A DNA stretch of 64,000 bases, taken from NCBI GenBank assembly GCA_945860705.1, contig CAMART010000014.1, positions 1-64,000 of the forward strand. Reading direction: 5' to 3'. Positions within the stretch are counted from its first letter, which is position 1; every line of letters begins with the position of its first letter. The notes below the pieces were generated by a model. That model ran no database searches. It worked only from the letters and a program-made list of their open reading frames with translations, and was not told the origin of the DNA. Positions 4,845-54,013 of the stretch are shown here, piece by piece. A program made the position numbers and the translations under genes. The DNA comes from Chitinophaga pinensis (GTDB lineage Bacteria > Bacteroidota > Bacteroidia > Chitinophagales > CAMDFR01).

Positions 4845-4926
4845 GGGAGTGCTAATTTGAATTTGCAAATCCAAAACTGCTGAGAGACGAGTTAATATTA
4901 TTTTTAGGAGCTATTTCCTGCTATGC

Positions 4927-4962
4927 GCTACTAGTCCTCGCCTCCTTCGTCGTCTGTGGGCT
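4927..4962 (+). repeat. Left arm of a perfect 36-bp inverted repeat
   Basis: This arm reads GCTACTAGTCCTCGCCTCCT and onward. It is exactly complementary to 5301-5336. With two mismatches the match extends left to about 4920. Its higher GC content contrasts with the surrounding DNA. Confidence 0.9.
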
Positions 4963-5300: not shown

Positions 5301-5336
5301 AGCCCACAGACGACGAAGGAGGCGAGGACTAGTAGC
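5301..5336 (-). repeat. Right arm of the perfect 36-bp inverted repeat
   Basis: This is the exact reverse complement of 4927-4962. It begins AGCCCACAGACGACGAAGGA and ends in AGTAGC. Together the arms bracket the inner palindromes and an AT-rich spacer. Confidence 0.9.
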
Positions 5337-5395
5337 ATATAGCGGGTGTATTTGGTGCCTTACTATTGAAAAAATTAAATAAGATTTAATATCCC

Positions 5396-9893: not shown

Positions 9894-9923
9894 AAAGGAA
9901 AATTTTACAAAAGGATGACGGAG
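9894..9923 (+). repeat. 30-bp direct repeat, copy 1
   Basis: This stretch is identical over 30 bases (core AATTTTACAAAAGGATGACG) to 11237-11266. The two copies bracket the orphan gene and the transposase of the first REP/RAYT island. Confidence 0.9.
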
Positions 9924-9956: not shown

Positions 9957-9982
9957 CTCGATGCGTGAAGACACGCATCGAG
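9957..9982 (+). repeat. REP-like palindrome 1 (loop AAGA)
   Basis: A perfect 11-bp stem, CTCGATGCGTG with CACGCATCGAG, encloses a 4-base AAGA loop. It is GC-rich against AT-rich surroundings. The same palindrome recurs at 10594-10617 and 11207-11230, next to the transposase gene, and nowhere else that I see in the window. It is not followed by a T run, which argues against a simple terminator. Confidence 0.85.
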
Positions 9983-10008
9983 GCGATAAAGGACGATGAT
10001 GGTTAGAG

Positions 10009-10117: not shown

Positions 10118-10561
10118 ATGAATAAACTAACTTATATATTAATATCGGTTATTCTAATTATAATAATTGCATTTTTTAGTATGCATTATTATCATGAAAT
10201 GTATTATGAAGAACTATATAAAAAACCTAAAAAATATGTTTATGAAACATTTATGGGACCAGTAAATTCAGTTTTAATAATTGAAGATTTAAAATATAAA
10301 AAAGATTTAATTGAATATTATGATTATGCGGAATTAAATCATAATTATACTTCATTCAATTTCGCACTAAAAACATTAACACGAGCTGAACAGGTATATA
10401 TAATTGGATATACTGAAGATAGTCTATTGTTAGAGGTTGTATCGTTATATGATAGAGGAGCACATTTTGGAGGTAGTTTTACACAAGGTTATGTATATTA
10501 TAAAACTCTACATGACTTGCCACCACCTGATTCTCTTATGCCTAAACCATGGATTAAGTAA
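10118..10561 (+). CDS. Small membrane-anchored protein of unknown function
   Basis: I do not recognise this 147-residue protein. It starts with a short N-terminus and a single strongly hydrophobic segment (about residues 5-22, ILISVILIIIIAFF). A mostly soluble region rich in Tyr, Asn and Glu follows, ending in a Pro-rich tail (HDLPPPDSLMPKPWIK). There is no lipobox cysteine and no clear signal peptidase site, so a single-pass inner-membrane anchor is most likely. It stands alone between two REP-like palindromes and inside duplicated flanking sequence, directly upstream of the transposase, so it may be a passenger of that island. Its very AT-rich codon use is similar to that of the transposase. 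Confidence 0.65.
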   Translation: MNKLTYILISVILIIIIAFFSMHYYHEMYYEELYKKPKKYVYETFMGPVNSVLIIEDLKYKKDLIEYYDYAELNHNYTSFNFALKTLTRAEQVYIIGYTEDSLLLEVVSLYDRGAHFGGSFTQGYVYYKTLHDLPPPDSLMPKPWIK

Positions 10562-10593
10562 GCTATCAGCCTTGATACCTGTCTTCAACCGCC

Positions 10594-10617
10594 TCGATGC
10601 GTGTCTTCACGCATCGA
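10594..10617 (-). repeat. REP-like palindrome 2 (loop TCTT), inverted relative to copy 1
   Basis: TCGATGCGTG and CACGCATCGA form a perfect 10-bp stem around TCTT, which is the reverse complement of the AAGA loop of copy 1. It lies 16 bases before the transposase ATG, where it could affect transposase expression or serve as its recognition site. Confidence 0.85.
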
Positions 10618-10633
10618 AACAATAGTTAGAATC

Positions 10634-11194
10634 ATGAATAATATTATTAAACACAATACATCAAATAGAAACTCCTTTATGGAGATGAATAAATTGTATT
10701 TTTGGACAGCAACTATTAGAAATTGGATTCAAATTTTTGATAAGAAACAAAATATAGATATAGTATTAAGTTCATTAAACTACTTATCTAATAAAGAACT
10801 ATTATCTATTTATGGATTTGTTATCATGCCAAATCATATACACTTTATTCTAAAAATGAATTCTTTAAATGGTAAAGAAAAACCAGTTGGTTCATTTTTG
10901 AAATACACCTCTCATGAAATATTGAAAAACATGAAAGAAGCTAATAATGAACTAAATATATTTGAAGTCAATACCAATAGAAAAAAGTATGAAATATGGC
11001 AAGAGAATCCATTAGCTATAGAATTGTATAGTACAGATGTAATTTATCAAAAATTAGATTACATACATAATAATCCTGTAAAAGAAAAGTGGTCATTGTC
11101 GCCTACACCACAAGAGTATTTATATTCTTCTGCAAATTATTATATAAATGGGATTAAAGATTTTGAGTTTCTAAATGATATAAGAACAATATAA
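10634..11194 (+). CDS. REP-associated tyrosine transposase (RAYT, Y1/HUH family)
   Basis: This 186-residue protein is a single-domain HUH nuclease of the RAYT/IS200-like group, which cuts and joins single-stranded DNA at REP hairpins. The HUH motif is in GFVIMPNHIHFIL (H68 and H70). A later KLDYIHNNPV segment supplies a candidate nucleophilic tyrosine (Y143), and YLYSSANYY near the C-terminus is typical. I chose ATG 10634; an upstream GTG at 10601 lies inside the palindrome. REP-like hairpins sit just before (10594-10617) and just after (11207-11230) the gene, the arrangement known for RAYTs in other bacteria. The frame is intact, so it may be active. Confidence 0.88.
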   Translation: MNNIIKHNTSNRNSFMEMNKLYFWTATIRNWIQIFDKKQNIDIVLSSLNYLSNKELLSIYGFVIMPNHIHFILKMNSLNGKEKPVGSFLKYTSHEILKNMKEANNELNIFEVNTNRKKYEIWQENPLAIELYSTDVIYQKLDYIHNNPVKEKWSLSPTPQEYLYSSANYYINGIKDFEFLNDIRTI

Positions 11195-11206
11195 ATATAA
11201 TAAGTT

Positions 11207-11230
11207 TCGATGCGTGGAGACACGCATCGA
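11207..11230 (+). repeat. REP-like palindrome 3 (loop GAGA)
   Basis: TCGATGCGTG and CACGCATCGA form a perfect 10-bp stem around GAGA. It lies 12 bases after the transposase stop and is in the same sense as copy 1 (purine loop). Confidence 0.85.
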
Positions 11231-11236
11231 GGCTAT

Positions 11237-11266
11237 AAAGGAAAATTTTACAAAAGGATGACGGAG
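11237..11266 (+). repeat. 30-bp direct repeat, copy 2
   Basis: Identical over 30 bases to 9894-9923. It starts seven bases after palindrome 3. The imperfect 37-bp repeat copy 2 follows at 11274-11310. Confidence 0.9.
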
Positions 11267-11273
11267 GATGTTA

Positions 11274-11310
11274 TTATTTAAGGAATTAGTAAATTAAACT
11301 AATATTGTTA
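11274..11310 (+). repeat. 37-bp imperfect direct repeat, copy 2
   Basis: Matches 10009-10045 at about 33 of 37 positions. In this copy it follows the 30-bp repeat closely. In the other flank the two are separated by about 85 bases that include palindrome 1. Confidence 0.7.
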
Positions 11311-11321
11311 CTATAATCCTC

Positions 11322-11966
11322 CTAATGACTCATAGGAAATTCTAAATGATTTTCTAAGTCTTGGAGATAAGTTTTGGCGCTAGGACCCATGTTGAATAGC
11401 AAATCAAGTATAGATATGTCTTCTAGAAAACCATGTCTATTGCCAAATACTTGAGTATATTCAGGCATATCGTGTTCGTATTTCATTTCTCTATATAGGA
11501 ATCTATAGTCGAGTAGTTCCTCATAGTTAGTTTTGAAACTTTCGGTATATTTTATAGGTATTTCTATTTTAAGTAAAGAGCAGATTTTATTAAACAGATT
11601 CATATTATACTCAAAAACAGAACTTACTTCCTGATGAAAAAATGAGTATAGTTCATCTTCATAAAACTCAAAAAAAGGAGAGCTTCTATATGCACTACAT
11701 AGACTTTGCCAATGATTTTTTTGCCAAGCTATTTCTTTTGATGCTTGTACATCTTTGTATAATTGTTTGTGGCTTTTGCCATAATGTATTGGAATAGATA
11801 ACATTTGCAATCCATTAGGGCTAGCTATATAACATCTATTTCTATTACTACTTTTCACAAAATACTCGTGTTGCTCTATATACACCTCACTAGCATGTAG
11901 GCATAGCGCAAAATAACTCACTGGTGGTAAGTATTGGCAATCAATCAATATTTTTTTATCTGTCAT
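11322..11966 (-). CDS. WbqC family protein
   Basis: The 214-residue protein has the full WbqC pattern: an N-terminal strand with a DCQYLPPVSYF segment, then YIEQHEYFVKSSNRNRCYI, a PNGLQMLSIPI strand, and WQKNHWQSLCSAYRSSPFFEFYED. WbqC-like proteins are found in polysaccharide and sugar-related loci in some bacteria and as lone genes in Bacteroidota. Their reaction is unknown. It is transcribed away from the downstream GWxTD gene. No sugar pathway genes are nearby. Confidence 0.85.
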   Translation of the reverse strand: MTDKKILIDCQYLPPVSYFALCLHASEVYIEQHEYFVKSSNRNRCYIASPNGLQMLSIPIHYGKSHKQLYKDVQASKEIAWQKNHWQSLCSAYRSSPFFEFYEDELYSFFHQEVSSVFEYNMNLFNKICSLLKIEIPIKYTESFKTNYEELLDYRFLYREMKYEHDMPEYTQVFGNRHGFLEDISILDLLFNMGPSAKTYLQDLENHLEFPMSH

Positions 11967-47653: not shown

Positions 47654-49663
47654 ATGAAAGTAAGTTGTTGTAAAATAATTGCATTATTATTTATTTGTTG
47701 TTTTATCCCAAATTTTGCACATTCTCAAGTAGTAATCAATGAAGTCATGCACTACCCGTCAGGCGCTCAAGGTATAATTAGTGCAGGTACTGAATATGTT
47801 GAATTGTTTAATACAAATCCGTGCACAAGTGCTAATATTGGTTGTTGGATTATTGGTATAGCTGATGTAGATGGAATTGCTAATAATCGTGGAAGCATAG
47901 TATTACCAGCCACAGCAAGCATACCTCCACTTGGCCATTATGTAATTGGAACTACTTCGTCCTCTGCAGATTCAAATTCAATAGATTTTAAAACAAATAG
48001 AAATACTAGTAGATATTGTGCTACTGGATCATTTATCTTAGCAAATGGAGATGGATGGGTAGGATTATATGATGCTAGTGGTATACCAGTAGATGCATTA
48101 TATTGGACAGTAAACGCAAGTGAATCTTCAAAAATAACTACAGATGGTGATTTAGATGATAGCCCTTGTATTACCACTACAGCCTCAGGCTGTCCAGCAG
48201 TTGCAAGTTTACTTTCTCCAAAAAATATTTTTTTAACTTATCCTACTCGAATTTCTTATGGTGGTCAGTATGTAAATGCCAATACTTTTAGTAGAATACC
48301 TGATGGTGGTACTTGGACTAGAGCTGTTACACCATCAATTAATGATTTAACTGTTGGTAATTGCAACGGAGGAGCAGGAGCTTGTATTGTGCCATCTGGA
48401 GCATTAAGGGATACTTTTGATGTTAGTATTTGTAACGGTCAGTCTTATTTATTTAATGGAATCAATAGAACTAGTGTTGGTTTTTATTTGGATACTTTTC
48501 CTCGTTCTGGAGGTTGTGATAGTATTGCAGTTTTAAACTTAATAATAAAACCTTCTAGAACTGGAAGTTTGTCAGCATCTATTTGCCCTAGTAGTAGTTA
48601 TTTATTTAATGGAATTAATAGAACTACAGCAGGTGCGTATTTAGATACATTAATAGGTAGTAATGGATGTGATTCTATTTTAACATTAAATCTATCATTA
48701 TTGCCTACAAGTAATGGTACATTAAGCGTGTTTATTTGTGAAGGTTCTAGCTATTTATTTAATGGGATTAACGTTAGTATACCAGGAGTATATTTAGATA
48801 CTTTTGTAGGTGTCAATGGATGTGATTCTTTTCTAACTCTTAATCTAAGGAACTACTTAAAAGATTCAACTATCATTACCCAAAATATTTGTACTGGTAG
48901 TTCATATTTATTCAATGGTATCAATAGAACTGCAAGTGGTATATATAAAGATACACTTACTAATAGAAATGGATGTGATAGTCTTATTACATTATTGCTA
49001 TCAGTAAATAATTCAGATACTACTATCAGCAATAGAACTATTTGCATTGGAGAAGCTATAAATTCAATCTATTATACGAATGATACTACAGTTATAAATA
49101 ATTATACAAATAGATTCGGATGTGATTCATTCTATCAATTGAATATTGTTGTGTATCCATTACCAACGGTAAATGCTGGGAACGATACAACTATATCAGC
49201 AGGTAATACTGCTATACTTATAGCTTCTGGAGCAGCAAATTATTCTTGGAATAATGCTACCATTGGTGCTGTCAATTCAGTGTCTCCTAGTGTATCTACA
49301 ACTTATATAGTCACTGGAACCGATGCCAATAATTGTTCTAATATTGATTCTGTAAATGTATATATTATACCGCTAGATGATTCTGTTTATATAGTTATTC
49401 CAAGCGCATTTACTCCTAATGGCGATGGATTGAATGATATCTATAAAATACTAGCGACTAAAAATCTAACATTAAAATCATTTACAATTTTTAATAGATG
49501 GGGTGAGTTAGTTTTTAGTTCTAATGATATAAGCATTGGTTGGGATGGTAGATTTAAAGATAGAGAGCAACCGATAGGCACTTTTGTTTATTATATAGAA
49601 GCATTAAAGATTAGTAACAAAGACAACTACAATATAACTGGCACAGTTACATTAATTAGATAA
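47654..49663 (+). CDS. T9SS type B cargo with lamin-tail domain and tandem repeats
   Basis: The 669-residue secreted protein has a signal peptide (about residues 1-25, ending HSQ). A lamin-tail domain follows (about 26-140: VVINEVMHYPSG, EYVELFNT). Four 51-residue repeats and a degenerate fifth come next (about 245-500), each with a SYLFNGINRT-like strand and a GCDSIxxLNL end. An Ig-like repeat and a C-terminal type B sorting domain finish it (IPSAFTPNGDGLNDIYKI, FNRWGELVFSS, ending VTLIR). It is exported by the T9SS to the surface. A type A cargo gene starts 14 bases downstream. Confidence 0.88.
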   Translation: MKVSCCKIIALLFICCFIPNFAHSQVVINEVMHYPSGAQGIISAGTEYVELFNTNPCTSANIGCWIIGIADVDGIANNRGSIVLPATASIPPLGHYVIGTTSSSADSNSIDFKTNRNTSRYCATGSFILANGDGWVGLYDASGIPVDALYWTVNASESSKITTDGDLDDSPCITTTASGCPAVASLLSPKNIFLTYPTRISYGGQYVNANTFSRIPDGGTWTRAVTPSINDLTVGNCNGGAGACIVPSGALRDTFDVSICNGQSYLFNGINRTSVGFYLDTFPRSGGCDSIAVLNLIIKPSRTGSLSASICPSSSYLFNGINRTTAGAYLDTLIGSNGCDSILTLNLSLLPTSNGTLSVFICEGSSYLFNGINVSIPGVYLDTFVGVNGCDSFLTLNLRNYLKDSTIITQNICTGSSYLFNGINRTASGIYKDTLTNRNGCDSLITLLLSVNNSDTTISNRTICIGEAINSIYYTNDTTVINNYTNRFGCDSFYQLNIVVYPLPTVNAGNDTTISAGNTAILIASGAANYSWNNATIGAVNSVSPSVSTTYIVTGTDANNCSNIDSVNVYIIPLDDSVYIVIPSAFTPNGDGLNDIYKILATKNLTLKSFTIFNRWGELVFSSNDISIGWDGRFKDREQPIGTFVYYIEALKISNKDNYNITGTVTLIR

Positions 49664-53104: not shown

Positions 53105-53117
53105 GTATACGGTCTCC

Positions 53118-53140
53118 ATGGTTTGTGGCTCACAAACCAT
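53118..53140 (+). repeat. REP-like palindrome A (loop GCT)
   Basis: ATGGTTTGTG pairs perfectly with CACAAACCAT around a GCT loop. The core GTTTGTG/CACAAAC occurs five times between 53118 and 53995. Confidence 0.85.
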
Positions 53141-53199
53141 AGCGCTAATGCGAACATTATCAACTTACTTAAACAAATTAGCTAATTTTCGACCCCATA

Positions 53200-53216
53200 G
53201 TTTGTGGCTCACAAAC
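53200..53216 (+). repeat. REP-like palindrome B (loop GCT)
   Basis: GTTTGTG and CACAAAC form a 7-bp stem around GCT, in the same orientation as copy A, five bases after the transposase stop (minus strand). Confidence 0.75.
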
Positions 53217-53221
53217 CAAAA

Positions 53222-53763
53222 TTAAATTCTTTCTCTATAATCCTTTATTATGTTAAATTTATCAGTATTTGTTAAATAATATCCAGCAGAAGACCAATGA
53301 TAATCTTCAGGAGCATTCGCTAACTTCCATTTTTCTTGTAATGGATTATTATGAATATAATTTAGTTTCTGTTCTAACATATTTCTTGAATATATTCTAA
53401 TAGCCAAAGGGTCTCTTTGCCATATTCTATATTTTCTGGTACTTTCATTTGTTTCAAACATTTTTAATACATTTAGATGATTTAGTTTTAAGTCTTTAAT
53501 TATTATGTGTGCAGTTTCCTTTGTAAAGCTTGCACTAGGTCTCTCTTTACATTTAATGATAAAAGTTCTACTATTAAATGAATATGATTTGGCATAATTA
53601 CAAACCCATACACTGAAATCATTTTATTCATTACTAACTTTTGCAATGAATCTATAATTATTGTTTTGTATTTATCTTGTTCTAATAATTTTTTCCATTC
53701 ATAAATTGTTAAAGTCCAAAAATATACTTCGTTTAATTCTAATAAAGAATTTCTCGCTTGCAT
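53222..53763 (-). pseudogene. REP-associated tyrosine transposase, frameshifted
   Basis: Two frames form one RAYT of about 180 residues. The first (ATG 53763) begins QARNSLLELNEVYFWTLTI and contains the HUH motif in GFVIMPNHIHLIV. The second has TRKYRIWQRDPLAIRIYS, then QKLNYIHNNPLQEKW with the candidate catalytic tyrosine, and YHWSSAGYYL. A single missing G in the codon after SLN, near 53550 (C on the plus strand), would give SLNGKERPSASF, matching SLNGKEKPVGSF of the intact transposase at 10634-11194. A start at 53847 inside a palindrome is unlikely. The copy is probably inactive unless the shift is an error. Its flanking palindromes differ from those of the first island. Confidence 0.85.
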
Positions 53764-53826
53764 GTTGGTTAATCTTATATTCAAATGTAAGAATAATAAA
53801 AATGTATTAAGATGTTTTATATATTC

Positions 53827-53845
53827 GGTTTGTGAGCCACAAACC
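53827..53845 (-). repeat. REP-like palindrome C (loop AGC)
   Basis: GGTTTGTG and CACAAACC pair around AGC, the reverse complement of the GCT loop of copies A and B. It lies 64 bases upstream of the transposase ATG, in opposite orientation to the copies downstream. Confidence 0.85.
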
Positions 53846-53848
53846 ATG

Positions 53849-53885
53849 GCATAGAAAGTGGCGACACTCTCGCCACTTTCTATGC
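53849..53885. repeat. Long perfect hairpin with 16-bp stem
   Basis: GCATAGAAAGTGGCGA at 53849-53864 pairs perfectly with 53870-53885 around CACTC. It has an unrelated sequence to the other palindromes in the island and no following T run. It could be another mobile-element recognition hairpin or a folded RNA. Confidence 0.85.
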
Positions 53886-53928
53886 ACCTTAAATTTCGTC
53901 ACTATTTATAAGGCTTATAGCGGATTCC

Positions 53929-53951
53929 ATGGTTTGTGGCTCACAAACCAT
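53929..53951 (+). repeat. REP-like palindrome D (loop GCT)
   Basis: ATGGTTTGTG and CACAAACCAT pair perfectly around GCT. It forms an opposed pair with palindrome E, 25 bases away. Confidence 0.85.
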
Positions 53952-53976
53952 AGAAAATAAGCGAAAGTATATAAGT

Positions 53977-53995
53977 GGTTTGTGAGCCACAAACC
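53977..53995 (-). repeat. REP-like palindrome E (loop AGC)
   Basis: GGTTTGTG and CACAAACC pair around AGC, in inverted orientation to palindrome D. Opposed REP pairs are a known arrangement (BIME-like). Confidence 0.85.
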
Positions 53996-54013
53996 ATGGG
54001 ATAGGAGCTTGAG

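Follow-up and report, generated by a model that had tools for sequence, protein, structure and literature searches.

Palindromic repeats beside a transposase gene raise the question of whether gene and repeats belong together and, if they do, what in the repeat the protein recognizes. The textbook example of a bacterially domesticated transposase is the RAYT. To our knowledge, work on how RAYTs recognize repeats has been confined to GTAG-type REPs, in groups 2 and 3, and the Bacteroidota RAYT group had been left as "atypical." Here, we examine a locus in a stretch of 64,000 nucleotides (the window) in which a transposase gene of this kind is associated with palindromic hairpins in an inverted layout. 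The hairpins are dispersed in intergenic DNA, their presence is species specific, and across relatives their bases covary with residues of the protein. We consider the locus likely to be a REPtron, that is, a subclass 2.6 (group 5) RAYT/TnpAREP gene together with a cognate family of REP hairpins, for which binding, cleavage, and mobility are predicted.

A RAYT gene between inverted palindromes

The frame at 10634-11194 (plus strand) is uninterrupted, as expected from the original prediction of an open Y1 HUH transposase gene, and reading it directly gives a product of 186 aa. The protein carries an HUH motif (MPNHIHF, with the pair H68-I-H70), a WQ motif (W122 Q123), a tyrosine motif (YIHNNP, Y143), and an SS tail motif. 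Its catalytic residues are intact, and the HUH pair with a single catalytic tyrosine in a Y1 fold is the arrangement by which a RAYT is recognized. Profile searches returned scores close to the cut-offs: 79.6 bits (E 2e-22) for NCBIfam REP_Tyr_transpos, narrowly below the cut-off of 80, and 22.7 for Pfam Y1_Tnp, against a cut-off of 23. A sequence profile of the protein retrieved 4ER8 from the Protein Data Bank. The same entry, the E. coli RAYT with a REP hairpin, was also the best structural match there (E 2.3e-7, TM 0.63/0.70) of an AlphaFold2 model of the protein (mean pLDDT 92), with the IS608 and ISDra2 transposases ranking next.

The text of Quentin et al. (2018, PMC6006769) equates TnpAREP subclass 2.6 with RAYT group 5 of Bertels and describes it by the signature NH[LIV]H, WQ, YIH[QN]NP, and SS, a length of ~179-180 aa, and occurrence in Bacteroidetes. 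The window protein shows each of these features (NHIH, WQ, YIHNNP, SS, 186 aa) and, by motifs, profile, and fold, is placed in RAYT group 5/TnpAREP subclass 2.6, which upholds the RAYT identity first proposed for it. The window system is thus new as a member, while its kind, the Bacteroidota RAYT group, is already known.

Exact copies of the palindrome TCGATGCGTG-N4-CACGCATCGA are present at 9958-9981 (loop AAGA), 10594-10617 (loop TCTT), and 11207-11230 (loop GAGA), the last two directly before and after the gene, and each forms a perfect stem of 10 or 11 bp with a 4-nt loop. The first copy, whose 11-bp stem extends it to 9957-9982, lies in the canonical orientation on the plus strand with a GGC foot at 9982-9984. 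The third shares this orientation and strand, with its GGC foot at 11231-11233 on the outer side, and the second is inverted on the minus strand, with GCC at 10591-10593, again on the outer side. Over 30 nt, 10591-10620 and 11204-11233 are 97% reverse-complementary, with the GCC/GGC at the outer side of each. Because GGC follows the palindrome in the canonical orientation, the two gene-adjoining copies are inverted, their GGC/GCC feet pointing outward from the gene. When up to three mismatches were allowed, the pattern matched three times in the window and not once in 100 dinucleotide shuffles. With three exact palindromes, none in the shuffles, and an inverted middle copy, the arrangement that had been read from the sequence is correct at the coordinates given for it, including the third copy away from the gene.

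Folding of the three copies as single-stranded DNA gave energies between -12.9 and -14.4 kcal/mol, with z-scores from -5.0 to -7.8. The canonical GT[AG]G foot is absent from the window REP, which has GGC/GCC as its foot, and a search of Rfam gave no match. Between the first and second copies lies an ORF of 147 aa (10118-10561, plus strand) with no match in Pfam or NCBIfam; across 150 genomes of the order, the only sequence related to it, itself aside, was a weak match (27% identity, E 2.5e-5). Elsewhere in the window, we noted a 46-nt inverted repeat (4917-4962 and 5301-5346, 93% complementary and 338 nt apart) and a direct repeat of four units at 48427-49006, spaced at 153 nt and possibly within a coding region.

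A hairpin design shared by relatives

A scan of named genomes yielded 80 relatives, nearly all labeled Bacteroidota, whose surroundings were surveyed for hairpins with at least 8 paired bases and a 3- or 4-nt loop. Hairpins with a GTG...CAC apex numbered 239 in 78 kb of flanking sequence, at 77 of the 80 loci, compared with 12 in 213 kb farther off, and the 63 other possible apices combined contributed 42 hairpins to the flanks. Adding relatives from genome searches brought the lineage to 164 non-redundant members. A hairpin of the same design lies within 500 bp in 149 of these (~91%); for the remaining 15, no such hairpin was found within that distance.

In the canonical orientation, the consensus reads NN-GGT-NN-GTG-RRGA-CAC-NN-ACC-NN-GGC, a 10-bp stem with an apex that is usually GTG-RRGA-CAC and a one-sided GGC foot. 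The apex is GTG in most relatives and GTC, GCG, or GAG in sub-lineages; across 434 REPs the foot, confined to one side, is mostly GGC. Foot and loop were used to orient the hairpins; this was possible for both nearest hairpins in 113 pairs, of which 88 are inverted with their feet outward, as in the window.

The hairpins of subclass 2.6 appear in the text of Quentin et al. (PMC6006769) as "atypical secondary structures" without GT[AG]G, found by manual inspection. We found no consensus for group 5 hairpins in the text of that paper or elsewhere in the literature consulted, and Nunvar 2010 contains no Bacteroidota terms. The design described here gives a clear definition of the group 5 hairpin and a pattern for annotating such repeats across the phylum.

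Covariation between protein residues and stem bases

We numbered the stem bases from 0 at the foot to 9 at the loop. Base 6 varies with residues 116/117/120: C is found with N,K,E and G with D,R,Q; hairpins with T go with E or D,R,R, and those with A go with N,K. At the loop-closing base 9, G goes with H or Q at residue 94, and C is accompanied mostly by R or K. S90 was found with C at base 8 in nine of nine cases; this association is tentative, its table being strong and its co-change test, with only five changes, unsupportive. R124 and a C at the 3'-strand partner of stem base 3 occur together in 137 cases, one without the other in only 2 and 1, and neither in 6 (Fisher p 1.6e-8, not tree-corrected). 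The window pair is one of these six joint departures, E124 with the stem GAT instead of GGT, a rare A-T pair. In the window, base C alongside K117 and a loop-closing G alongside H94 also agree with the tables, and its R116 falls off the table (N elsewhere).

Such tables are open to a reading in which the hairpins are cognate to the RAYT and the covariation reflects shared ancestry only, without the stem being read directly. The gene is physically linked to the REPs that flank it and is inherited with them, and the tree has 9 changes at residue 117 and 19 at base 6. An independent-pairs test on supported branches offered few pairs, and for base 6 and residue 117 most of them showed no difference at 117. 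Because shared ancestry is the main confounder, naive mutual information served for finding candidates only, and further tests were made; with too few independent pairs available, these were same-branch co-change, identity-matched pairs, prediction from distant rows, and a held-out set.

In identity-matched pairs, the signal was concentrated in residues 116 (z 5.7), 117 (4.9), and 120 (3.5) for base 6 and in residue 94 (z 6.0) for base 9. The same columns topped the same-branch co-change ranking, for which the tree was built without the tested columns: residue 116 and base 6 scored 8.5 observed against 1.8 expected, first among all columns, and residue 94 with base 9, also first, scored 5.0 against 0.4. 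Residue 124 was likewise top-ranked with base 4 (3.0 against 0.5) and with base 5 (4.4 against 0.7). When base 6 was predicted only from rows of less than 45% identity, residues 116/117/120 reached 0.56; the nearest protein gave 0.27, and none of 300 random triples exceeded 0.38. In the held-out test, with the first 79 loci for training and 67 later ones for testing, they reached 0.91 against 0.69 for the nearest whole-protein neighbor, while random triples did not exceed 0.66. The test set was mostly base G, and T was predicted in only 2 of 6 cases. The concentration of signal in these few columns, and its persistence among distant rows, make shared ancestry by itself a rather unlikely account. 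The covariation draws on a limited number of independent changes.

Genomic dispersal and an empty site in a sister species

Pattern searches of the whole genome (2.94 Mb in 46 contigs), the check suggested with the original prediction, returned 8 palindrome sites at up to two mismatches and 11 at up to three, against none for a reversed-pattern control. None of the dispersed sites inspected (contigs C19, C41, C2, and C3) overlaps an ORF of at least 90 aa, that is, they are intergenic, and C19 carries two tandem copies 48 bp apart. The window palindrome is absent, at up to three mismatches, from three other species of the genus. The palindrome is dispersed in this genome and absent from these sister species; confinement to the locus would have counted toward refuting the original prediction. 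The locus thus combines flanking palindromes with dispersed further copies, as RAYT loci do. REPs of some proteobacteria are reported to occur in hundreds of copies; at 11, the window family is low in number.

In the closest sister species (G003, with a gldA 84% identical), gldA and a wbqC-like gene are adjacent with ~115 bp between them, and their junction holds no RAYT, 147-aa ORF, or palindrome. In the window, the two genes are ~1.5 kb apart. Two identical copies of a 30-nt direct repeat (9894-9923 and 11237-11266, plus strand) bracket the island, and a single stretch related to this repeat is present at the empty site of G003. The simplest reading of this site is an insertion in the lineage of the window, although the island may instead have been lost in G003. 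Transposition of the IS200/IS605 type is not expected to generate such a duplication.

The locus might also be a simple IS200-like insertion sequence, with the inverted hairpins at 10594 and 11207 as its ends, that moves together with its gene as a unit. This would account for the inverted hairpins enclosing the gene and for the missing island in the sister species. Such a reading is improbable, however, given that the gene is present in a single copy in this genome with the closest intact paralog only 44% identical, that gene-free hairpins occupy other sites, and that the protein fits the IS200 model poorly (14.5 bits against a cut-off of 55). A plasmid search returned relatives at 27-35% identity only. 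Membership in IS200/IS605 was rejected on the profile score and on the lack of multiple near-identical full copies.

A reading of the palindromes as ordinary transcription terminators or stabilizers of mRNA that flank the gene by chance and are unlinked to its protein is highly improbable: REPs can be co-opted for such roles, and one copy (11230 to 11207, read on the minus strand) lies downstream of the wbqC-like gene, ends in a T-rich tail, and receives a terminator-like score, but the other two window copies have no T-run (one tail among three copies), and the hairpin design recurs beside relatives of the gene, is rare elsewhere, differs between RAYTs of one genome, and covaries with the protein.

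Proposed mechanism and comparison with known systems

If the locus is a REPtron, as we favor, the RAYT would bind the hairpin in its single-stranded state, by analogy with the biochemistry of E. coli TnpAREP. Tyr143, positioned by the HUH pair, would cut beside the hairpin near its foot, and the ends would be rejoined. Cutting and rejoining may occasionally move or rearrange REP copies into intergenic DNA, and we infer, in keeping with the original prediction, that the RAYT mobilizes or maintains the palindrome family. Comparison among relatives suggests that recognition is directed at a hairpin of fixed design rather than at the canonical GTAG foot. The covariation suggests that the stem bases are probably contacted by helix alpha3 (84-102 in the AlphaFold2 model), through residue 94 and perhaps 90, and by the segment before and at the WQ motif (116, 117, 120, and 124). 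RAYT and palindrome would then change together, so that several RAYTs in a genome would go with different hairpin families.

We speculate, at somewhat short of an even chance, that group 5 uses a partly modular code in which the loop-closing pair is specified by residue 94, the pair next to it perhaps by 90, and the fourth and seventh pairs from the loop by 116/117/120 and 124, respectively. Such a code would permit RAYTs to coexist without cross-talk and to be re-targeted by a few substitutions. For the E. coli protein, Corneloup et al. (2021, PMC8266576) report a contact between the REP and K82, a residue of helix alpha3, and they propose that in group 3 this helix, together with the region downstream of it, binds the stems. 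The covarying positions, found independently of that work, fall in these two regions. Together, the residue-base covariation and the single hairpin design provide a testable recognition scheme and a specific mutational test.

With subclass 2.6 as described in the text of PMC6006769, the window system shares its Bacteroidetes host, motifs, length of ~180 aa, an insertion between alphaC and beta4, flanking atypical hairpins without GT[AG]G, and further copies elsewhere in the genome. The two are the same in kind, and the hairpin consensus and recognition residues proposed here are absent from that published text. E. coli TnpAREP and its REPs (RAYT group 2; 4ER8; PMC8266576) share the fold, the HUH motif with one tyrosine, flanking REPs, and the presence of alpha3 in the hairpin-binding region. 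E. coli REPs, however, have a GTAG foot, a bulged stem, and a high copy number, whereas those of the window have a perfect stem, a fixed GTG/CAC apex, a purine-rich loop, a GGC foot, and a low copy number. The IS200/IS605 transposases (IS608 and ISDra2) have the HUH/Y1 fold and, judging by the fold match, hairpin recognition in common with the window RAYT. In those elements whole IS units move and exist in several near-identical copies, in contrast to the single gene copy and many gene-free hairpins found here. The CGTC-tagged palindromic repeats (PMC3733652), likewise short and from Bacteroidetes, bear a CGTC tag and have no adjoining RAYT, whereas the window repeats have a GGC foot and flank one.

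Other RAYTs and palindrome families

The window genome holds two further RAYTs. One, of the same lineage and frameshifted, lies in the window itself at 53234-53778 on the minus strand; the surrounding interval, 53110-54004, contains five hairpins of the form GGTTTGTG-AGC-CACAAACC. This family retains 10 sites in the genome at up to one mismatch, so its REPs persist despite the broken gene. The other is on contig C18, with hairpins of the GGCGGGTG type. Three RAYTs with three hairpin families in one genome indicate that different RAYTs go with different families. The sister species G002 encodes a RAYT 48% identical to that of the window and carries another family, GGTTTGTG-N4-CACAAACC, at 30 sites. 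Eight sites of this form, a related hairpin, were found in G001, of the same genus, in which no RAYT gene of the NNP lineage was detected; that genome is 87% complete, and the gene may therefore simply be missing from the assembly.

Several additional elements were noted. Two closely similar 182-aa RAYTs of a second 2.6-like lineage (MSVRYKFRNQEK..., HQNP) are encoded in one genome (contigs C44 and C6), and no strong hairpin was found in their 3.2-kb loci. A dispersed palindrome, TCACGCC-NN-GGCGTGA, has 26 sites genome-wide at up to one mismatch and none in the reversed control (for example, L007 1454-1477 and L227 ~1435); the copies inspected have no adjoining RAYT. On contig C21, a 143-aa IS200-type protein (L009, 1426-1857; 94 bits to Y1_Tnp) is flanked by near-perfect inverted repeats of 44-46 nt (1198-1243 and 1904-1947) with the shared motif TATAGCCCA/TGGGCTATA. 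Finally, palindromes of different families lie within ~70-220 bp of each other at C11 ~11295-11519, C2 14463-14529, and C6 115858-115942, as though REPs of several families accumulated at some intergenic sites.
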